Assembly: GCF_012910905.1 (NCBI RefSeq) | Contig: NZ_WTVN01000035.1 | Location: 1 to 43,992 of the forward strand | Length of the DNA: 43,992 nucleotides | DNA from: Aromatoleum toluvorans | GTDB lineage: Bacteria; Pseudomonadota; Gammaproteobacteria; Burkholderiales; Rhodocyclaceae | Reading direction: 5' to 3' | In this document: piece after piece, positions 4,751 through 15,304 of the stretch | How positions within the stretch are numbered: position 1 is the first letter of the stretch | Layout: each line of letters opens with the position of its first letter | The notes under the pieces: generated by a model | Told to the model about the DNA's origin: nothing | The model's input: the letters and a program-made list of their open reading frames with translations, nothing else | Database searches by the model: none | Made by a program: the position numbers and the translations under genes

Positions 4751-6378
<1,628 letters not shown>

Positions 6379-6400
6379 GTCTTCCACCATCCTATGGTCA

Positions 6401-6417
6401 TCAATATATAGCGATTA
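6401..6417 (-). promoter_or_regulatory. ModE-box-like half site before modE
   Basis: The complement reads ATCGCTATATA at 6405-6415, eleven bases that match the left half of the known E. coli ModE operator consensus (ATCG-T-TATATA). It lies 15 bases upstream of the modE start region, where a bound repressor would block transcription. The matching right half is not clear, so this may be a half site. Confidence 0.45.
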
Positions 6418-6507
6418 CCATGCCAAGAAGCGAATCGCCATGGACGGCCGGATAATCCCGCGAAACGTCGGGATCCTGGCGATCTCCGCGCTGGCAGACG
6501 CGACATT

Positions 6508-6531
6508 TTATGTATAGCAGACAATATAGCG
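6508..6531 (-). promoter_or_regulatory. ModE operator-like site upstream of modEABC
   Basis: On the complement, CGCTATATTGTC is followed after a short spacer by TACATAA. From memory, the E. coli modA operator begins CGTTATATTGTC and continues through CCTACATAACG, so the match is close, with two extra bases in the spacer. It stands about 130 bases upstream of modE in an otherwise gene-free divergent region. Autoregulation of the mod operon by ModE is the simplest reading. Confidence 0.5.
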
Positions 6532-6847
6532 TGTCACATTTCCGACAAACCCGACAAGGCGTGCGCCCAGGCAGGGGAACTCACGCAATATCTTCACGGA
6601 ACCGGACCTCGAACCGGGGGGATGCGCGCCACGGCCGTGATCAAGCCTCGCACGTCGTCCCCGGCGTGCCAAGCTACAACTTTCGTGCAATACGTCACGC
6701 GCATCGGAAGCCTAGGGCCTTGAATTCTGTTGCCATCCCGTTCATGCTGCCCGCGCGTAAGATCTAGGTCACCAATAACAAGAAAGCGAAGCTCACGCGC
6801 CCAGGTTAACGGCGCGGGACTATTTGATCCACAAGGGGACGGCTGGA

Positions 6848-7798
6848 ATGACCGAGGGAATCAAGGGCGCGCGGGACGCCAGGCGAACGCTCGCCGATAC
6901 GCGCGCGGGTACTGCGCTCGCCGGCCGCCGCCGCATCATGCTCGGGCTGCTGGCTGGCCTCGGGCTGTCGCTGGCCGAACGCTCGATCCCGGCCGCACTG
7001 GCCGCGAGCGAGCCGCCGCTGGTGATGGGGATCTTCCCGCGGCGTCAGGCGACGCTGACCACGGAGCTCTACGCACCACTCGCCGCCTACCTCGGGCGCG
7101 AGCTCGGGCGCGAGGTCCGGATCGTCACCGCGAAGGATTTCGACGCGTTCTGGGATGGCGTCGAACAGCGGCGCTTCGATATCGTCCATTACAACCAGTT
7201 CCACTACGTCCGCTCCGCCGACAAGTACCGCGTGATCGCGCACAACGAGGAGTTCGGCACCGGCACGGTCGCCGGCGCGCTCTATGTCAGGAAGGACAGC
7301 GGCATCACCGCGATCGCACAGCTGCGCGGGCGCAAGATCGTGTTCGGCGGCGGCACGGACGCAATGATGAGCTACATCCTGCCGAGCTACCTGCTGCTCG
7401 AGGCGGGGCTGAAGCCCGGCGACTACGAGACGGTGTTCTCCAAGAATCCGCCCAATTCGCTGATCTCGCTGTACCACGGCCAGGCCGACGCGAGCGGGGC
7501 GGGCGACATCCTGATTGATCTGCCGGTGGTGCGCGAGGCGATGGACACCGCCACGGTCACCCACCTCGGCATGACCGAGCGCGTGCTGCACCTGCCCTGG
7601 GCGGTGCGCAAGGACATGCCGCAGGCGCTCGCCACGCGCATCCAGGCGCTGCTGGTGGGGCTCAAGGCACGCGAAGAAGGGCGCGCGATCCTCGCCCGGG
7701 CCGAGATGACCGGCTTCGGCCCGGCGCGCGACGCCGACTACGATCCGCACCGCCGCATCATCCGCAAGGTCATGCCGGCGATCGATATCCCGCGCTGA
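6848..7798 (+). CDS. PhnD-like periplasmic substrate-binding protein
   Basis: The 316-residue protein has an N-terminal export signal with a run of three arginines before a hydrophobic stretch (GRRRIMLGLLAGLGL, residues 27-40), possibly Tat-type. The mature part begins PPLVMGIFPRRQ and follows the PhnD/phosphate-phosphonate binding pattern: TTELYAPLAAYLGREL, FDIVHYNQFHYV, GGGTDAMMSYILPSYLL, and NPPNSLISLYHGQADASG. Such proteins bind anions such as phosphonate, phosphite or phosphate, but many orphan members feed sensor proteins. No permease or ATPase is linked; the next gene, 15 bases on, is a membrane c-di-GMP protein, so a sensing role is more likely than transport. ATG 6848 is preferred to 6824. 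Confidence 0.82.
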   Translation: MTEGIKGARDARRTLADTRAGTALAGRRRIMLGLLAGLGLSLAERSIPAALAASEPPLVMGIFPRRQATLTTELYAPLAAYLGRELGREVRIVTAKDFDAFWDGVEQRRFDIVHYNQFHYVRSADKYRVIAHNEEFGTGTVAGALYVRKDSGITAIAQLRGRKIVFGGGTDAMMSYILPSYLLLEAGLKPGDYETVFSKNPPNSLISLYHGQADASGAGDILIDLPVVREAMDTATVTHLGMTERVLHLPWAVRKDMPQALATRIQALLVGLKAREEGRAILARAEMTGFGPARDADYDPHRRIIRKVMPAIDIPR

Positions 7799-7813
7799 GC
7801 ACGGAGAGCGCCC

Positions 7814-9880
7814 TTGCGCCTCGCGAGCAAGTTCATCCTCACCGTGGCCGGCATCCTGTCGGTCACGCTGGCGCTGAACACCTGGTTCTTCCTGCGCAGC
7901 CAGAACCACCTCGTGGAACAGCAGCTCAACGAGCGCGGCCGCGTGCTGGGCCACCTGATCGCACTGATCAGCCCCGAGGCGATCCTCGGGCTCGATTTCC
8001 TGACCCTCAACGGCTATGCGCGCGAGGTCAGCCGGCAACGTGACGTGGTCTATGGCGTCATTGTCGACAATGACGAGCGGCCGCTGACGTCGTATGTGAA
8101 CGGCGACGATCCGCACATCCGCAGCAGCCTCGGTGTCGCCGGGCCGGCGCCGGATCATCTGCCGCCGCCCCGCCTGCGGACGCTGATCCGGGAGCTCGCG
8201 GCGCTGCCCGACGTGATCCCGATCGAGTTTCCGATCGTCCACGACGGTCGCCCGCTGGGCCGCCTGCAGGTCGGCATCAGTCGCGCGGAACTGGCCACGC
8301 AGGCGCGCGAGCAGCTTCTTCTGCAGTTCGGCATCTATGCGGCGATCATCCTGTTCCTGAGCGTCGCGATCTACCTCGTGTTCCGCTACAGCGTGATGCG
8401 CCCGGTGCAGCACCTGATCGAGGTCTCGCGCGACGTCGGGCGTGGCGAATTCACGCTCGTCCCGGTGACCTCCGACGACGAGCTGGGGCGCCTCGGCGAG
8501 ACCTTCAACGCGATGACGCTGGAGATCCAGCGCGAGCAGGCCAAGCTGCACTACCAGGCGAACTACGATTCGCTGACGGCCCAGCCGAACCGCATGCTCG
8601 CGGTCGAGCGGCTGCAGCAGGAGATCCGTTCGGCGCATCGCCAGCAGCAGCGCTTCGCGCTGATGTTCATCGACCTGAACGACTTCAAGATCGTCAACGA
8701 CACGATGGGGCACGCCGCGGGTGACCGCCTGCTCGCGCACGTGAGCGCCAACATCCGTGCGCGCCTGCGCGAGGAAGACACGCTCGCGCGCCTCGGCGGC
8801 GACGAATTCCTGGTGCTGCTGCCGCGCCTCGGCGAGGCGAACGACGCCAGGGATGTGGCCGGACGGCTGCTCGAGGCGGTGGCCGAACCGGTGACGCTGG
8901 ACGGCCGCGACGTGGTCGTGCACTGCAGCATCGGCATCGCGCTGTACCCCGACGACGGGGAATCGGTCGAGGCGCTGATGGCCAACGCCGACAACGCGAT
9001 GTATCAGGCGAAAAAGCCCGGACGGACGCCGATCTGCTTCTTCACGGCGGAGATGAACGCACAGGTGCATGAGCGCATGCGTCTCGAGCAGGATCTCAAC
9101 AGGGTTGTCGCGCGTGGCGAACTGCAGCTCGCGTTCCAGCCCATCTTCCGCGCCGATGATGGCGCCTACGTCGGCGCCGAGGTGCTGCTGCGCTGGCGGC
9201 ACCCCGAACGCGGCTTCATCTGCCCGGCGACCTTCATCCCGCTCGCCGAAAGCACCGGCCAGATCGTCGCGATCGGCGAATGGGTGCTGCGCGAGGCGGG
9301 GCGACAGCTGCGCCGCTGGCTGGACGCGGGACTCGCGCCGGGCTATCTGGCGGTCAACCTCTCGCGCGTGCAGTTGCGCGAGGACCTGGAGCAGCTGATC
9401 CGCGAGGTCCTCGACGATAACGACTTGCCGCCGCAGGCCCTGGAGCTCGAGATCACCGAGAACGTCCTGCTCGACGACCACCAGCAGATCAACGCGGTGC
9501 TGGGACGGCTGCACGCGCAGGGGCTGCGCTTCAGCCTCGACGACTTCGGCACGGGTTACTCCTCGCTCAGCTACCTGCGCCGCTTCTCGTTCGACACGCT
9601 GAAGATCGACCGCAGTTTCGTCGCGCCGCTGCGCGACGACGCCGAGGCCGCCGCGCTGGTGCGCGCGATCGTCGCGATGGCGCACAGCCTCGCGCTGAAG
9701 GTGATCGCCGAGGGAGTGGAAACCCCCGCACAGCAGGAATTCCTGAAGGGCCTGAACTGCGACTACCTTCAGGGCTACCTGTTGTCGCGCCCGCTCGACG
9801 CCGACCACTTCACCACCTTCCTCGCCTGCTGCGCGCGCAAGTCCCGACCCGCAGGCAGTTCACCGGTGCTTCTCCAATGA
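7814..9880 (+). CDS. Membrane-bound GGDEF/EAL cyclic-di-GMP protein with HAMP domain
   Basis: This 688-residue protein has one N-terminal helix (about 7-27), a roughly 140-residue periplasmic domain, a second helix (about 172-190), a HAMP segment ending near 240, then GGDEF and EAL domains. The cyclase motif GGDEF (328-332) is intact, with a product-inhibition site RxxD (319-322) five residues upstream. The EAL domain has EVL at 456-458, ELEITEN (544-550), DDFGTGYSSL (576-585), KIDRSF and AEGVET (632-637), so phosphodiesterase residues also look intact. It could make or break c-di-GMP according to a periplasmic signal, probably relayed by the preceding binding protein. TTG start at 7814; the stop overlaps the next ATG. 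Confidence 0.93.
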   Translation: MRLASKFILTVAGILSVTLALNTWFFLRSQNHLVEQQLNERGRVLGHLIALISPEAILGLDFLTLNGYAREVSRQRDVVYGVIVDNDERPLTSYVNGDDPHIRSSLGVAGPAPDHLPPPRLRTLIRELAALPDVIPIEFPIVHDGRPLGRLQVGISRAELATQAREQLLLQFGIYAAIILFLSVAIYLVFRYSVMRPVQHLIEVSRDVGRGEFTLVPVTSDDELGRLGETFNAMTLEIQREQAKLHYQANYDSLTAQPNRMLAVERLQQEIRSAHRQQQRFALMFIDLNDFKIVNDTMGHAAGDRLLAHVSANIRARLREEDTLARLGGDEFLVLLPRLGEANDARDVAGRLLEAVAEPVTLDGRDVVVHCSIGIALYPDDGESVEALMANADNAMYQAKKPGRTPICFFTAEMNAQVHERMRLEQDLNRVVARGELQLAFQPIFRADDGAYVGAEVLLRWRHPERGFICPATFIPLAESTGQIVAIGEWVLREAGRQLRRWLDAGLAPGYLAVNLSRVQLREDLEQLIREVLDDNDLPPQALELEITENVLLDDHQQINAVLGRLHAQGLRFSLDDFGTGYSSLSYLRRFSFDTLKIDRSFVAPLRDDAEAAALVRAIVAMAHSLALKVIAEGVETPAQQEFLKGLNCDYLQGYLLSRPLDADHFTTFLACCARKSRPAGSSPVLLQ

Positions 9881-10458
9881 GCCCCACCCAGCCCGACGCC
9901 GCGCTCGCCGCCATGCGCAACCGCCAGCGCGCCGTGCGCCAGGCGCGCGGCAAAGTCCTGCTGCGCGGCGCGCTGGGCGCCGCCGCCGTCGTCGGCTTCG
10001 TGCTGTGGGCCCATTTCGCCTCCGGCCGGCCGACGTTCTCGCCGCACGGGGCGCCCGAGCCCGGCTGGGAGGCGTTTCGCAACGCCTATGGCGTCGACGC
10101 CTTCGGCCGCGACGGCTATTTCGTGCGCGCGATCCAGAACGGCTACAACCTCGTGCACCACACGCACAAGTACGCGTGGCGCTTCACGCGCAAGGGTGCC
10201 CACGACCATCCGAACGCGTGCAGCGACTGTCACGACGCGGAGGCCCTCGCTTACGCCTTCGCGGCCGGCGATCGCTTCGACGCGCGGCTCGGGCGACGGG
10301 TGTCCTTCGAGGAGCGCGTGATGCGCTGCTACGCGACACATCTCGACGGCTTCATCCCGACGATCCACGAGCCGGCGGTGCGCGACATCCGCATCTTCGC
10401 CCGCATGGTCGCCCACCACCTGCAACTCGGCGAAGGCGCGCTGGGGCACGCACGGTGA
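9877..10458 (+). CDS. Membrane-anchored monohaem cytochrome c, SoxA/TsdA N-domain-like
   Basis: The 193-residue protein has a single N-terminal membrane anchor (about 29-47) and one haem-binding motif, CSDCH at 115-119. Thirty-six residues later comes RCYATHLDG with Cys151, followed by a helix (RDIRIFARMVAHHL). The next gene has the same arrangement (QCYINSSNG), and the layout resembles the single-haem SoxA/TsdA N-terminal fold, in which this cysteine can be the unusual haem ligand. CYATH is not a second haem motif because it lacks the second cysteine. The ATG overlaps the GGDEF/EAL stop and its own stop overlaps the next GTG. Substrate is unknown. Confidence 0.75.
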   Translation: MSPTQPDAALAAMRNRQRAVRQARGKVLLRGALGAAAVVGFVLWAHFASGRPTFSPHGAPEPGWEAFRNAYGVDAFGRDGYFVRAIQNGYNLVHHTHKYAWRFTRKGAHDHPNACSDCHDAEALAYAFAAGDRFDARLGRRVSFEERVMRCYATHLDGFIPTIHEPAVRDIRIFARMVAHHLQLGEGALGHAR

Positions 10459-11552
10459 AGCCGCTCGCGCCGGCCTGGCGGAAGGCCATACGACTTGCAC
10501 TGCTGATCGGCGTGCTGCTCGCGCTGTACGCGCTCGCGCTCGCGAAGCACGACGAACGCGCGCGCATCCGCGAGCAGCCGGTGACGCTCACGCCGGGCTG
10601 CGCCGACAAGCTCGCCCGCTACGGCCTCGCCGCCGGAGCGACCTACGTGTCGCCCTACGCGCTCGCGCGCACCGGACAGGCGACCGTGCGCCGAGGCTAC
10701 AGTGAGGAGGACGTGCGCGCGATCGAGCGCGGCTGCAACATCATCGACGACCTGCAGGGACAGCTCGCCGCGGACCCGGCGCGCGAACGCTGGAACGCGA
10801 CGCGCTTCGTGCGCGGCACCCACACGAGCTGCGACCACTGCCACCAGGGCATCGGCGACAAGCAGACCGCGGCCGGCGTGCCGCAGCCCGGCTCGCTGAG
10901 CCTCGCCGCGTCGTGGGTCATGGCCGACATGTACGACCAGTTCACCGGCATCCTGCTGCCCTACGAGCTGCGCCAGATGCAGTGCTACATCAACTCGTCG
11001 AACGGCTACAAGCCGAACATCGCCGACGACCTGATCCGCGACGTCACCGCGTATGGCCGCTTCCTCGCCGCGGCGCTCGACCTGCGCTTCGGCAACCGCT
11101 ATCCGGAACAGGGTATCGACGAGGTGACCGCCTCATCGACACTCAAGCGCGGCGACGACTATGTCCGCGGCGGCGCGCTGTTCAGGGAGAAGTGCGCGCG
11201 CTGCCACGGCCCGCAGGGGCTCGGGACGGTCGTCGACGGCAAGGTGCTGTTCCCGGCAGTAGCCGGGCCGAACGCGTTCAACCTGCAGTCGCGCAACAAC
11301 TTCTCCTTCGTGTCGACGATCCTGCCGGGCTTCATCTGCCGCAACATGCCGCTCGGCGAGGAGGGCACGCTCTCCAACCAGGACTGCCGCGACATCGCCT
11401 TCTACGTCAGCAACCTGCCGCGGCCCGCCGGCGACAAGCAGGGACCGCTCGCGGCGCTGTGGCAGCAGCTGATGATGCACGTGATGCCGCCGCTGATCCA
11501 TACCGTCGAATCCTGGCAGCGGCCGGGCGAAACCGTGGGGAGCGGGACGTGA
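10455..11552 (+). CDS. Dihaem cytochrome c of the thiosulfate dehydrogenase (TsdA)-like family
   Basis: The 365-residue protein has an N-terminal anchor (about 11-30) and two haem motifs, CDHCH (126-130) and CARCH (247-251). The first domain has QCYINSSNG (Cys177), matching the place of the cysteine haem ligand in TsdA. The second ends FICRNMPLGEEGTLSNQD then AFYVSNLPRP, closely resembling the TsdA C-terminal domain, with Met298 as probable axial ligand. TsdA interconverts thiosulfate and tetrathionate, but this protein has a longer N-terminus, a C-terminal extension after PRP and a membrane anchor, so the activity is not certain. GTG start overlaps the previous stop; the stop overlaps the SulP start. 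Confidence 0.8.
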   Translation: MKPLAPAWRKAIRLALLIGVLLALYALALAKHDERARIREQPVTLTPGCADKLARYGLAAGATYVSPYALARTGQATVRRGYSEEDVRAIERGCNIIDDLQGQLAADPARERWNATRFVRGTHTSCDHCHQGIGDKQTAAGVPQPGSLSLAASWVMADMYDQFTGILLPYELRQMQCYINSSNGYKPNIADDLIRDVTAYGRFLAAALDLRFGNRYPEQGIDEVTASSTLKRGDDYVRGGALFREKCARCHGPQGLGTVVDGKVLFPAVAGPNAFNLQSRNNFSFVSTILPGFICRNMPLGEEGTLSNQDCRDIAFYVSNLPRPAGDKQGPLAALWQQLMMHVMPPLIHTVESWQRPGETVGSGT

Positions 11553-13135
11553 ACGTGAAGACCGGCGTGTTTGCGTGGGCACCGCCGCGCGCGGGCGCAC
11601 TCGGCAACGAGTTGCTGATCGGACTGACGCTCGCGATCGTCGTGCTGCCGCAGGCGATCGCGTTCTCGACGACGCTGGCCGGCCTGCCGTCGTATTTCGG
11701 CCTCTACTGCGCGATCTGGGGCGTGCTGTTCACGGCGCTGCTGAACCCGTCGCGGGTGTTCCACGGCGGGCCCAACAGCACGCTGTCGGCGGTCGTCGGC
11801 GTCACGCTGCTGCCGGTCGCGCCGCAATTCGGCCCCGACTACATCGGCTATGCGCTGACGCTGTTCCTGCTCGCGGGGCTGATCCAGCTGGTGTTCCTCG
11901 CGGTGCGGCCGCTCGGGCGGATGCTCGACTTCGTCAGCGAACCGGTCGCCAACGGCATGATCTGCGGCATCGGCCTGTACATGATTTTCAAGTCATTCCC
12001 GGCCTTCGCCGGACTGCCGATCAACACCCAGGTCGAATGGCGCCTGTGGATCGCCTGGCAGAGCTTCCTCGCGGTGCTCGAGATCGGCAACCTGCACGCG
12101 ATCCACATCGGCCTGATCACGCTGCTCGTGACCATCGTCGCGCGCCAGTTCGCAGCCCTGCGCAACTGGGCGATCCTGCTCGGCATCGTCGCCGGCACGC
12201 TGTACTCGGAATGGCTGAACGCCCGCCTCGGGCTCGCTGCCACGCTGGTCGAACAGACCGCCAACGTCTCCGCCGCGGGCTTCGTGTACCCGTCCGTGCC
12301 GCTGGTTGCCCAGGAGGCGATGCCCGACATCATCAGCATCATCCCCGGCGCGGTCACGCTCGCGCTGTTGGGCCTGTTCCAGACGGTCGCCGCGATGCGG
12401 CGCATGAACCGCCGCAGCGGCCAGTTCGTCGACGCGCGCCACGGCATCTTCGCCGACGCGCTCTCCAACTGCGTGCTGCCCTTCATCTCGGCGCTGCCGA
12501 CCTGCGCATCGTTCAACCGCATGTCGCTGATGCACGCGATGAACACCGGCAGCCGGCTCGCCGCCGTCTCGTCGGCGCTGTTCCTGCTCGCGCTGGTGAG
12601 CTTCTTCGGCGACTTCATCGCGATCATCCCGGTGCCGGCGATGGCCGCGATCATCATGGTCGTCGGCGCCAACATGATCGACTGGTCGGACATCCGCGCG
12701 CACTTCCAGCACCGCCCCGAAGCGATCGTGTTCAGCGCCTCCTTCCTGTCGGTGCATCTCTTCGGCCTCTTCGGCGCGGTGATCTGCGGCTCGCTGCTTG
12801 CCCTCGCCTATGCGAAGTGGGAGAAGGCGCATCCCAACGTCAGCCTCGAGCACAACGTGTTGCGCATCCGCGGCAACATCTATTACGGCTCGCTGCCGGT
12901 GATCGAGTCGCTATACCACCGGGCCAGCACCGACGCGCGCATCGACGAGCTGATCGTCGATTTCTCCGCGGTCCACCACATCGACCCGGAAGGCATCCGC
13001 TGGCTCGCCGAGGTCGGCAGGAACGGGAAGGTCCGCTTCATCGACCGGCGCAGCGGGCAGGACCGGCGTGCCGTTTCGGGCGAATCCCCGCCCGACCGCA
13101 AGCGCCGCGACCGCCGCCGCCGGCACACGCTGTAG
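11549..13135 (+). CDS. SulP family inorganic anion transporter with C-terminal STAS-like domain
   Basis: The 528-residue protein shows about ten or more hydrophobic helices and the SulP opening signature (LTLAIVVLPQAIAFS, GLYCAIWGVLFTALL, HGGPNSTLSAVVG). SulP proteins carry sulfate, bicarbonate or other anions across the inner membrane. The C-terminus has a short STAS-like segment, LIVDFSAVHHIDPEGIRWL, in which the usual phosphorylatable serine after the aspartate is proline. It ends in an arginine-rich tail with two R-R/D-R-R clusters. GTG start at 11549 overlaps the cytochrome stop, so it belongs to the five-gene operon. The substrate cannot be told; sulfate or thiosulfate export or import is a context-based guess. 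Confidence 0.88.
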   Translation: MNVKTGVFAWAPPRAGALGNELLIGLTLAIVVLPQAIAFSTTLAGLPSYFGLYCAIWGVLFTALLNPSRVFHGGPNSTLSAVVGVTLLPVAPQFGPDYIGYALTLFLLAGLIQLVFLAVRPLGRMLDFVSEPVANGMICGIGLYMIFKSFPAFAGLPINTQVEWRLWIAWQSFLAVLEIGNLHAIHIGLITLLVTIVARQFAALRNWAILLGIVAGTLYSEWLNARLGLAATLVEQTANVSAAGFVYPSVPLVAQEAMPDIISIIPGAVTLALLGLFQTVAAMRRMNRRSGQFVDARHGIFADALSNCVLPFISALPTCASFNRMSLMHAMNTGSRLAAVSSALFLLALVSFFGDFIAIIPVPAMAAIIMVVGANMIDWSDIRAHFQHRPEAIVFSASFLSVHLFGLFGAVICGSLLALAYAKWEKAHPNVSLEHNVLRIRGNIYYGSLPVIESLYHRASTDARIDELIVDFSAVHHIDPEGIRWLAEVGRNGKVRFIDRRSGQDRRAVSGESPPDRKRRDRRRRHTL

Positions 13136-13141
13136 CCGCCG

Positions 13142-13160
13142 CCGGCACTTCCCGTGCCGG
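13142..13160. terminator. Hairpin between convergent sulP and OB-fold genes
   Basis: CCGGCAC and GTGCCGG pair over 7 bp around a TTCCC loop, directly after the SulP stop. No T tract follows on either strand. Its place between convergent genes makes a terminator role plausible. Confidence 0.35.
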
Positions 13161-13191
13161 GCAGCGTGACGATCGGGCGCGGACCAAGCGC

Positions 13192-13560
13192 TTACTTCTT
13201 CGCGATGGTCGCGTCCTCGACCAGCAGCGGGTACATGTAGCCCGAGCCGAAATCGCGGTCGAGCGTGACGTTGCCGGTGACGACGACTTCGTCGCCGACC
13301 GCGGCAGTGTCCTTGCTCGTGACGATGAGGTTGTTGGTGCCCTGTTCACCCGAACCGTCGCGCACGTGGACGAAGTTGCGGCCCATGATGCCGTTGTTCA
13401 CCTTGACCACCTTGCCGCTGACCTGGATCGCCTTGCCCGACAGCGCGGCCTTTTCCTGATACACGGCGGCGACGGTCTTGACGGCGGCGTCCTCGGCGAA
13501 GGCCGCGGGGGCGACGGAAGCGAGCATTCCGGCGATGACGAGGGCGAGAATTTTCTTCAC
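13192..13560 (-). CDS. Periplasmic OB-fold protein (NrfJ-like)
   Basis: A 122-residue protein with a Sec signal peptide (VKKILALVIAGMLASVAPAAFA). The mature part contains GKAIQVSGKVVKVNNGIMGRNFVH and a later GDEVVVTGNVTLDRDFGSGY, a five-stranded OB-fold pattern as in the NrfJ/tRNA-anti-like periplasmic family. Function of these proteins is poorly defined; some are linked to metal or c-type cytochrome physiology. GTG 13560 was chosen because AGGAG stands upstream at a normal distance and it begins the signal peptide; the 5'-longer reading to 13650 lacks a ribosome site. It is downstream of the chemoreceptor on the same strand, with a 136-base gap. Confidence 0.75.
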   Translation of the reverse strand: MKKILALVIAGMLASVAPAAFAEDAAVKTVAAVYQEKAALSGKAIQVSGKVVKVNNGIMGRNFVHVRDGSGEQGTNNLIVTSKDTAAVGDEVVVTGNVTLDRDFGSGYMYPLLVEDATIAKK

Positions 13561-13696
13561 GAACAGACTCCTGCTGATGGGTCCGCATGCGGACAGGAAG
13601 GCAATGCTGCAAGCGGGCATTGTATACCCCTGCCGCGGCGGCGGGCGCATGACGTCCGACTGAGACGATGCCGCGCCCGCACGTGCCGCGGATGCA

Positions 13697-15304
13697 TCAG
13701 GCGAGGCGGAAGCGCCCCGCGGTGCCCTGCAGCTTCGCCGCGACTCCTTCGAGCTGCTGCGCGGCGGTCGCCGTCTGCTTGACCGCGGCGCTGTTTTCCT
13801 CGCTCATCTGCGCGGTCTGCTCGACGCGGCGCGCGATCTCGTTGCTCGCGGTGGACTGCTCGTGCAGCGCGCTGGTGATGTCCTCGACCGCCGCGACGAC
13901 GTGGCGCGCCTGGTCGGTCAGGACGCTCATCGCCTCGCCCGCCTCGCGCGACAGCGCATCGACGCTGCCCATGTGCGCAACGACCTTCTCCATGCTCGCG
14001 ACGGCGTCGTGAGTGACGTTCTGCACCTGCGCGATCATCTCGGTGATCTCCTGCGTCGACTTGCCGGTGCGCTCGGCGAGCTTGCGCACCTCGTCGGCGA
14101 CCACCGCGAAGCCGCGCCCCTGCTCGCCGGCGCGCGCCGCCTCGATCGCGGCGTTGAGCGCCAGCAGGTTGGTCTGGTCGGCGATGTCGCGGATGACGCC
14201 GACGATCGACGAGATCTGGTCGGAGAAGCCGCCCAGCAGGCGGATCTGCTCGGCCGTGTGGCCGACCGCGGTGGCGGTGACACGACCGCTCTCGACCATG
14301 CGCGTGACGATCTCGTGGCCTTCGGCGGACTTGCGCCCCGACTCGGTGGCGGCGCTGCGCACGTCCCTCGCGTGGTCGGACACCTGGGCGATGCTGACCG
14401 ACATTTCCTCGACCGACGCCGCCATCGACGAGGCCGCCTGCGACTGCTGCTCGGTCGAGCCCGACAGCTGCGTGGTCGTCGCGACCAGTTCCCCGCTCAT
14501 CGACGCCAGGCCGTCCGCGTGTTCCTGCATGTGCGCGGCGATCTCGCGCAGGTTGCCCTGCATCGCACGGCAGGCGGCCAGCACCTTCGCCAGCTCGTCG
14601 CGGCCGTCCACGTCGAAGGCGTGCGTCAGGTCGCCCGCCGCGATGCGCTCGGCGGCCTGCTGCACGGTCTGCAGCGGCTTGAGGATGGAGCGCAGCACGA
14701 ATCCGGCATACACCGCCAGCGCGAGCGCGGCGACGACCGCGACGATGGCGATCTCCAGCAGGGTCTCGCTGCGCTTGGCGTCGAAGCGGCGGTCGGCGTC
14801 TTGGGCCTCGCGCCCCATCGACTCCGCCACCTTTGCCAGGTGTTCGCGGATGCGTTCGACGGTGGCGTCGGCCTCGTCGTCGATCGCATGGATCGTCGGA
14901 TCGACTTCGTTGGCAGCGTTCAGCGTCGGCAGCAGACGCTTCTCGAACAGCGCCACGATCGCCTCGACCTCCCGGCGCGCCTGGGCCACCGCCTGCTTCT
15001 CCTCGGACGAATCCGCGGCCTCGTCGAGCCGCTGCAGGTCTGCGTTCGCCTCGGCATGCAGGGCGGCGAAATCCTTCTTCGCGGCATCGATATCGCGGTT
15101 GATGATCGTGTCGGCAAAGATCTGGTAGAACTGCGCTCCCAGCCAGGACGCCTCGGCTGCACGCGCCTGCGCCTGCGTCTTGGCAAAACCGTCGTCCTGG
15201 GCGTTGGCGAGATGGCTCATGCCGTACAGCGCGATTCCCATCACGGCGGCAAGCATGATGAGCGCGATGGCGACCATCGCCTGCAGACGGTGTTTGACAG
15301 ACAT
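13697..15304 (-). CDS. Methyl-accepting chemotaxis protein
   Basis: The 535-residue protein starts [17 protein letters not shown] with a first membrane helix (about 8-28), a roughly 155-residue helical periplasmic domain of the four-helix-bundle type, a second helix (about 185-207), a HAMP domain and a cytoplasmic signalling domain. The conserved hairpin tip is [20 protein letters not shown] followed by [18 protein letters not shown], so it can couple to CheA/CheW. There is no CheR-binding pentapeptide; it ends GRFRLA. Ligand unknown. A sigma-28-like promoter lies upstream, fitting the flagellar regulon. The start at 15304 begins the membrane helix; the reading to 15448 adds an unlikely leader. 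Confidence 0.94.

Follow-up and report, generated by a model that had tools for sequence, protein, structure and literature searches.

A conserved locus joins a binding protein and a c-di-GMP enzyme to TsdA-like cytochromes and a SulP transporter

What might a bacterium do with a locus in which a periplasmic binding protein, a membrane enzyme of cyclic di-GMP (c-di-GMP) turnover, two cytochromes and an anion transporter follow one another on one strand? Such a locus lies in a 43,992-nucleotide stretch of Aromatoleum toluvorans DNA (contig NZ_WTVN01000035.1; the whole stretch is called the window here). An earlier sequence-only reading had proposed that its five genes, g1 to g5, sense a sulfur or phosphorus oxyanion, adjust c-di-GMP and process or move the anion. 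We found that the five genes form a conserved unit with a three-gene core, g3-g4-g5, and our results point to a c-di-GMP-linked sensory and respiratory cassette for a sulfur compound that is probably not handled as plain thiosulfate. Open reading frames (ORFs) and their translations in the window place the five genes as follows:

g1, 6848..7798, + strand: periplasmic solute-binding protein of the PhnD/PtxB family (PF12974), from a subfamily with invariant PR at 64-65 and DAM at 171-173
g2, 7814..9880, + strand: TTG start; two transmembrane helices flanking a PAS/Cache-like periplasmic domain, then HAMP, GGDEF and EAL
g3, 9877..10458, + strand: predicted membrane-anchored monohaem cytochrome with the SoxA/TsdA catalytic-domain fold
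g4, 10455..11552, + strand: dihaem TsdA-like cytochrome with an N-terminal hydrophobic helix and extension
g5, 11549..13135, + strand: SulP-family anion transporter with a short STAS domain and an Arg-rich tail

All five ORFs stand where that reading had put them, and the junctions are those it described: a 15-base gap between g1 and g2, then start-stop overlaps of ATGA (g2-g3), GTGA (g3-g4) and GTGA (g4-g5). An alternative TTG start for g1 lies at 6824. The spacing 15/-4/-4/-4 recurs in five of the seven loci of the genus and is 15/-8/-4/-4 in the remaining two. A consensus scan of 6380-13700 turned up neither a terminator-like nor a sigma-70-like site, a result compatible with one transcript or with several.

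After removal of duplicates we compared 40 distinct loci from Beta- and Gammaproteobacteria, the window's included; all were collected through g4, so the presence of g4 is by construction. Its neighbour g5 adjoins it in 40/40 loci, and g3 is found in all 38 loci where the contig reaches (the contigs of L089 and L112 start inside the cassette). Testable loci contained g1 in 33 of 38 cases (32 above threshold plus L094, where only a contig-end fragment is left) and g2 in 32 of 37 (31 above threshold plus the cut copy in L106; contig ends also cut g2 in L069 and L072), and g5 of L103 is in pieces as assembled. All five genes occur together in 32/40 loci, some with g2 cut by the contig end. Co-conservation, on which the sequence-only reading had made its single unit depend, is thus seen across the 40 loci, except that one gammaproteobacterial clade has the cytochromes and the SulP gene without g1 and g2 alongside (L093, L101, L102, L103 and L104, all metagenome-assembled genomes, MAGs).

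Besides these five core-only loci, 12 have the order 1-2-3-4-5 and 21 the order 2-1-3-4-5 (as placed in the tree, L094 by its partial g1). In a midpoint-rooted tree of g3+g4+g5, the order 1-2, order 2-1 and core-only groups were each monophyletic (support 0.965, 1.0 and 1.0), and pairwise distances of the five proteins correlated with r 0.68-0.93 over 28 loci, uncorrected for species descent. Within the genus, 7 of 17 genomes have a full-length close g4 relative (>700 bits). Relatives of g4 above 500 bits occur in 15 of 349 sampled genomes of the order, own genome included, to which genome G261 adds one weak TsdA-like match. At class level 4 of 369 genomes (own included) pass 1e-60. Searches with g3 gave a full match in 2 of 199 genomes of the family, plus two weak matches, the own genome alone among 398 across the phylum at E <= 1e-8, and no match among plasmids. 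A scan of named genomes yielded 35 loci, from Aromatoleum, Azoarcus sp. Aa7, three Marinobacterium, Motiliproteus sediminis and many Beta- and Gammaproteobacteria MAGs, with Acidiferrobacteraceae and Ectothiorhodospiraceae among the MAG carriers. Two MAGs labelled Bordetella parapertussis (L090, L100) hold cassettes that group with Betaproteobacteria MAGs of the 2-1 clade, and these labels may be wrong.

When flanking ORFs were clustered, those overlapping the cassette having been removed, four clusters were common to the 1-2 and 2-1 clades, two of them being overlapping frames of other clusters or of one stretch; no cluster was shared with the core-only clade. The common clusters represent one chromosomal stretch with two clear genes, which by their sequence resemble zapD and coaE. 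This stretch adjoins g5 in seven loci of the 2-1 clade (L069, L072, L073, L089, L098, L105 and L109); in L083, a locus of the 1-2 clade, its distance to the cassette is 4.8 kb. The pair itself (L089:2827-4359; L083:14235-15677) perhaps marks an old common insertion site.

The chemistry of the core is most open to comparison in g4, which matches A. vinosum TsdA (E 7e-21) and, in Pfam, Cytochrome_CBB3/Cytochrom_C over its C-terminal domain only. Four of its features can be placed on TsdA or its haems:

g4 haem 1 motif C126-D-H-C129-H130, 10830..10844, + strand: 39/39 (L112 cut by the contig end)
g4 Cys177, equivalent to the catalytic Cys ligand of TsdA (mature Cys96, precursor Cys123), 10983..10985, + strand: 40/40
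g4 haem 2 motif C247-A-R-C250-H251, 11193..11207, + strand: 40/40
g4 Met298 (with Asn297), a haem 2 pair as Asn254-Met255 of C. jejuni TsdA, 11346..11348, + strand: Met298 in 40/40

By homology, Cys177 would ligate haem 1. TsdA is described as binding thiosulfate through Arg109, Arg119 and Ser127; Arg119 is given as invariant in TsdA and SoxA, and Ser127 as invariant in TsdA (PMC4423706). The Arg119 equivalent in g4, Arg173, is kept in 40/40 proteins and the Ser127 equivalent, Ser181, in 39/40, with one Ala. The position of Arg109, 14 residues before Cys177, is instead Phe163, and Phe is found there in all 40 g4 proteins, in an alignment to TsdA that is ungapped across Y160, G165, E171, R173 and C177. 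Among 23 dihaem TsdA-like controls, by comparison, 19 have R and 4 have K there. Of these controls, 22 belong to the genus and the remaining one is from G261, which represents another family of the order; they are 23 of 24 listed TsdA-like loci, L040 and one further match per listing that lacked a locus having been left out, and were aligned with 39 of the 40 g4 proteins (L112 being cut). In a tree of this set rooted on A. vinosum TsdA, 22 of its 23 controls coming from one genus, g4 was monophyletic on a long branch of 2.3 substitutions per site (support 0.93).

The haem 2 pair tells less. Asn254-Met255 is the pair reported for C. jejuni TsdA (PMC6879331, PMC5146829). Since the 23 paralogues have Asn-Met as well, the pair does not set the catalytic direction here. 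Several of the paralogues come from cassette-bearing genomes, including that of the window (L030); these genomes thus have another TsdA-like enzyme besides the one in the cassette. Like TsdA of A. vinosum and C. jejuni, then, g4 is a dihaem protein with a predicted Cys-ligated haem 1, Arg119 and Ser127 equivalents and a C. jejuni-type haem 2; unlike them it has Phe for Arg109, an N-terminal hydrophobic helix with an extension, a clade of its own among the proteins sampled, four invariant extra Cys (49, 94, 295 and 311; Cys49 and Cys94 in 39/39) and a monohaem sister and SulP protein as partners. Of the proposed TsdA-like identity, the Cys ligand and the two pocket equivalents held up, while the Arg109 position did not fit; plain TsdA-type thiosulfate chemistry is not supported, with Phe in 40/40.

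The sister cytochrome g3 falls below Pfam detection, with no match at E <= 0.001 and SoxA-TsdA_cyt-c at 16.2 bits under a 27-bit cut-off. Its structural model, with a predicted local distance difference test score (pLDDT) of 89 and a long N-terminal helix, matched TsdA or TsdBA at Foldseek ranks 1-9 and SoxA at ranks 10-12, the only matches with probability >=0.7; the best had E 0.0035 and probability 1.00, and no match reached E 0.001. Two features were invariant:

g3 haem motif C115-S-D-C118-H119, 10219..10233, + strand: 38/38
g3 Cys151, presumed distal haem ligand, 10327..10329, + strand: 38/38

The haem motif, this Cys and the fold match uphold the SoxA-like monohaem type that had been proposed. 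The Arg119 equivalent is present in 28/38 g3 proteins and the Ser127 equivalent in 8/38, and g3 is of the SoxA/TsdA kind and probably not a thiosulfate enzyme by itself. With SoxA of SoxAX it shares the SoxA/TsdA domain fold, the CxxCH motif and a conserved further Cys; it differs in its single haem, its predicted transmembrane anchor and the lack of a SoxB match in the genus's seven carriers (the search by name did not extend to SoxX, SoxY or SoxZ). We rejected membership of the Sox pathway for the genus, where SoxB, taken as the pathway's marker, exceeded its cut-off in one of 17 genomes, a non-carrier.

We turned to the ligand of g1, which belongs to the Phosphonate-bd family (Pfam, 167.6 bits) and has PtxB as its best match among solved structures (E 8e-25, PDB profile search). 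For Ps_PtxB, PMC5700983 gives an STS-H motif of S124, T125, S126 and H155, with D16 on the pocket-closing loop. The g1 residues aligned to these are A172, M173, residue 174 (M/I/L/V), P201 and R65. A172, M173 and P201 are kept in 32/32 g1 proteins and R65 in 31/31, with one gap (L100). The alignment is ambiguous by one residue at S124-S126, and the triplet is without Ser or Thr either way. The STS-H phosphite/phosphonate motif is therefore absent in all 32, and the phosphorus oxyanion suggested by the sequence-only reading is not borne out. AioX has the Ser/Ser/His pocket of PhnD plus a Cys (PMC5908839). The window's g1 has no Cys at all and does not match the AioX/ArrX pocket (Cys106, Ser161, Ser163, His192). 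Because the STS-H motif is missing and the window's g1 is without Cys, a phosphite, phosphonate or arsenic oxyanion bound in the known way is an unlikely ligand on this alignment, and both phosphite/phosphonate sensing and AioX-like arsenic sensing were rejected; the invariant Arg at the predicted pocket loop would leave an anion possible.

Uptake was rejected as well. ABC ATPase-like ORFs lay within 3 kb in only 3/40 loci by motif scan, all on the other strand and behind modA; for the surroundings of the locus this agrees with the earlier view of a binding protein without any ABC partner. Thus g1 shares fold and family with PtxB/PhnD and differs from them in lacking STS-H, in Arg65 for loop Asp16 and in having no ABC genes of its own there. 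In AioX/ArxX/ArrX and TtrS, as may be the case for g1, a PhnD-family protein or domain senses a respiratory oxyanion; their output, in contrast, is a histidine kinase, and g1 lacks the Ser/Ser/His/Cys pocket of AioX. Two loci have tandem g1 copies between g2 and g3 (L099:3572-5526, L107:7692-9625), which may mean two ligands per receptor. Beside the core-only cassette of L101, a PhnD-family protein (62.8 bits) without the FPR motif is encoded divergently (L101:8089-9003).

The membrane protein encoded next to g1 has HAMP, GGDEF and EAL domains (43, 163.8 and 244.2 bits in Pfam). GGDEF and I-site residues of g2 are kept in 30/30 proteins and the EAL-domain residues E456, N515, E546, E549, D576, D577, K597, E633 and Q653 in 31/31, leaving A-site, I-site and EAL motif residues intact, as expected of the membrane GGDEF/EAL enzyme that had been proposed; the residues scored are those generally held to matter in these domains. 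The periplasmic part has no Pfam family match. Its model, of moderate confidence (pLDDT 76), consists of a small alpha/beta domain set between two long helices, one N-terminal and one C-terminal. In view of that confidence and of the weak Foldseek matches to PAS/Cache sensors (E >= 0.0045), we describe this domain as PAS/Cache-like only.

Relatives of g1 elsewhere bear on its role. In the genomes of L102, L104 and L112 they adjoin other receptors, standing beside HAMP-GGDEF-EAL (L135), HAMP-HisKA (L137, with its g1 relative divided between two frames) and HAMP-MCP (L136, L138). Since close relatives adjoin such varied HAMP receptors, namely a c-di-GMP enzyme, a kinase and two chemoreceptors, the proposed sensor role of g1 is strengthened; one binding-protein subfamily with differing receptor outputs is the pattern that a receptor subunit would show. 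Solute-binding proteins can drive chemoreceptors, kinases and c-di-GMP enzymes (PMC9602780), and NspS-MbaA is a precedent for a solute-binding protein acting with a c-di-GMP enzyme (PMC8967002). As in NspS-MbaA of V. cholerae and S. meliloti, g1 stands beside a membrane GGDEF/EAL receptor, g2 having a periplasmic domain; NspS-MbaA answers polyamines, whereas g1 is of the PhnD family and the pair is tied to cytochromes and a SulP protein.

The last gene of the core matches Sulfate_transp (152 bits) and STAS (25.2 bits), both above the Pfam cut-offs, which confirms a transporter of the SulP type; it falls far under the NCBIfam sulP subfamily cut-off (137.5 vs 380.45 bits). In SLC26Dg a Glu couples protons. 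While g5 shares the Sulfate_transp and STAS domains of SulP/SLC26 proteins, it differs from them in this NCBIfam score and in having Gln278 where SLC26Dg has that Glu, in 21/21 aligned proteins. The Arg-rich tail (window 13038-13135; DRR and RR repeats) is shared by all 21 SulP proteins in the alignment.

Together, these results suggest that the five genes may be one sense-and-respire cassette, with g1 as receptor subunit, g2 as c-di-GMP output, g3 and g4 for sulfur chemistry and g5 for exchange, a reading that we regard as evenly poised between right and wrong. In this cassette g1, a receptor and not a transport subunit, would bind a periplasmic ligand and dock on the PAS/Cache-like domain of g2, which would then raise or lower c-di-GMP as NspS-MbaA does with polyamines. 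Anchored in the membrane through its N-terminal helix and assisted by its sister g3, g4 would run a TsdA/SoxA-type reaction on a sulfur compound, its haem 1 Cys ligand forming a covalent sulfur adduct and electrons leaving through the His/Met haem 2. Because the pocket is changed, with Phe for Arg109, the compound is probably not plain thiosulfate taken by the usual route; candidate substrates would be tetrathionate, if the reaction runs reductively, or else a thiol or thiosulfonate that is organic or bulkier. An anionic substrate or product would be exchanged across the inner membrane by g5. That the compound sensed is also the one turned over would be the simplest reading of the gene order, and the unit would then adjust c-di-GMP in response to what its cytochromes handle. 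The ligand, the docking, the catalytic direction and the transported anion are put forward here as proposals; gene content, conservation, motif states and folds (by sequence or model) are observed. A bolder form, which we offer tentatively and consider on balance unlikely, makes g3-g4 an undescribed respiratory sulfur enzyme with two Cys-ligated haems and a substrate other than thiosulfate, tied within a single operon to a dedicated c-di-GMP receptor that a binding protein triggers, such that the substrate feeding electrons would also decide between motile and sessile life.

Several observations weigh against the cassette as a single sensing and respiring device. The core stands without adjoining g1-g2 in 5/38 testable loci, which makes the sensor not indispensable to it, and three of these five genomes show just weak family matches (<=84 bits); of the others, one has a g1-g2-like pair on another contig and one has g1 relatives beside a chemoreceptor and a kinase. 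With the zapD/coaE-like stretch near the cassette in loci of both the 1-2 and the 2-1 clade, some of the conservation in Betaproteobacteria is explained by a common position on the chromosome. Because g3 does not keep the equivalents of Arg119 and Ser127, it may be an electron carrier only, and g4 itself has Phe in place of Arg109. A search of the seven carriers of the genus, the only lineage searched, gave no SoxB match; g1 of L100 has an in-frame stop as assembled, upstream of its R65 gap; and the neighbouring genes, some of them molybdenum-related, are no guide to the substrate.

Three other explanations were considered. The locus could be an ordinary thiosulfate dehydrogenase or tetrathionate reductase cassette: despite its diverged pocket, g4 would function as a genuine TsdA, g1 would be a TtrS-like sensor of thiosulfate or tetrathionate, and g5 would move sulfate or thiosulfate. 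The retained Cys, Arg119, Ser127 and C. jejuni-type Asn-Met pair would fit, as would the PhnD-like Phosphonate-bd sensor domain of TtrS (PMC11293645) and the weak match of g1 to the NCBIfam TtrS model (27.1 bits vs a cut-off of 750). We nonetheless consider this unlikely, though a serious contender, given Phe in 40/40 g4 against R or K in 23/23 TsdA-like paralogues, the separate clade on its long branch and the further TsdA-like enzyme present in several cassette genomes, the window's included. Two functions may instead merely travel together, with g1-g2 acting as a c-di-GMP receptor in its own right, for a ligand unrelated to the core, and g3-g5 as a unit of sulfur respiration. That g1-g2 adjoin g3-g5 in 32/37 testable loci across Beta- and Gammaproteobacteria, with short gaps where measured, makes this improbable in our view, even though g1 and g2 swap places between two clades and are absent beside the core in the third, genome G917 has a g1-g2-like pair on a different contig from its core, and shared position accounts for part of the conservation. 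Finally, the cytochromes could be redox sensors or partners of the receptor, their Cys-ligated haems reporting redox state to g1/g2 next to a housekeeping SulP exchanger. The lack of substrate-coordinating residues in g3 and the membrane-anchored look of both cytochromes (g3 by its model, g4 by its N-terminal hydrophobic stretch) agree with such a role; we judge it quite improbable, since the core persists without adjoining g1-g2 in five loci and g4 conserves its catalytic Arg119 and Ser127 equivalents.

To our knowledge, the signal is unknown for most c-di-GMP receptors. Here gene order supplies a receptor together with a candidate ligand-binding protein and a candidate enzyme, and it does so in named strains (Aromatoleum, Marinobacterium, Motiliproteus), which makes ligand and output directly testable. 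In Qipengyuania flava, as reported in PMC10267684, c-di-GMP controls TsdA through a PilZ protein in answer to a blue-light signal, and a Dechloromonas aromatica hydrogenase cluster lists a periplasmic binding component and a GGDEF gene (PMC2907700). With these cases known, the theme of sensor and respiration is not isolated. The LOV kinase-GGDEF-PilZ system of Q. flava links c-di-GMP to a TsdA-type enzyme as this cassette may do; it does so through blue light and a PilZ protein, whereas here receptor and enzyme lie in one gene cluster with a binding protein. If correct, the proposed sense-and-respire cassette would be a second link between c-di-GMP and sulfur oxidation beside Q. flava, and would add a Cys-ligated haem enzyme with a changed substrate pocket. 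In literature searches aimed at the gene set, at a link between TsdA and c-di-GMP and at background, we found among open-licence PMC papers none on the five-gene set, on its fixed combination or on the changed TsdA pocket. Taken singly, all the parts belong to known types; what appears to be new is their constant association and the altered pocket.

Around the cassette in the window, a ModE-type regulator and modA lie to the left on the opposite strand, and a small protein and an opposite-strand chemoreceptor to the right. The modA and ModE-type genes (window 4751-6390), divergent to the cassette, are so placed in five of the seven carriers of the genus. A MoaA-like radical SAM gene is convergent behind the cassette in Marinobacterium (L084:12729-13979, L086:12864-13859), and in Motiliproteus the segment immediately upstream of g1 (L088:1932-6519) encodes a molybdopterin oxidoreductase, probably a formate dehydrogenase to judge from its leader and small partners. 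We did not adopt a molybdenum theme from modE/modA, the MoaA-like gene and the oxidoreductase, as the clustering, in which neighbours of the 2-1 clade were grouped without family annotation, finds none of these common between clades. In the gammaproteobacterial MAG of L101, a protein of 939 residues, in which a simple count gives 37 CxxCH motifs, is encoded ~6.6 kb upstream of the core (L101:310-3129).

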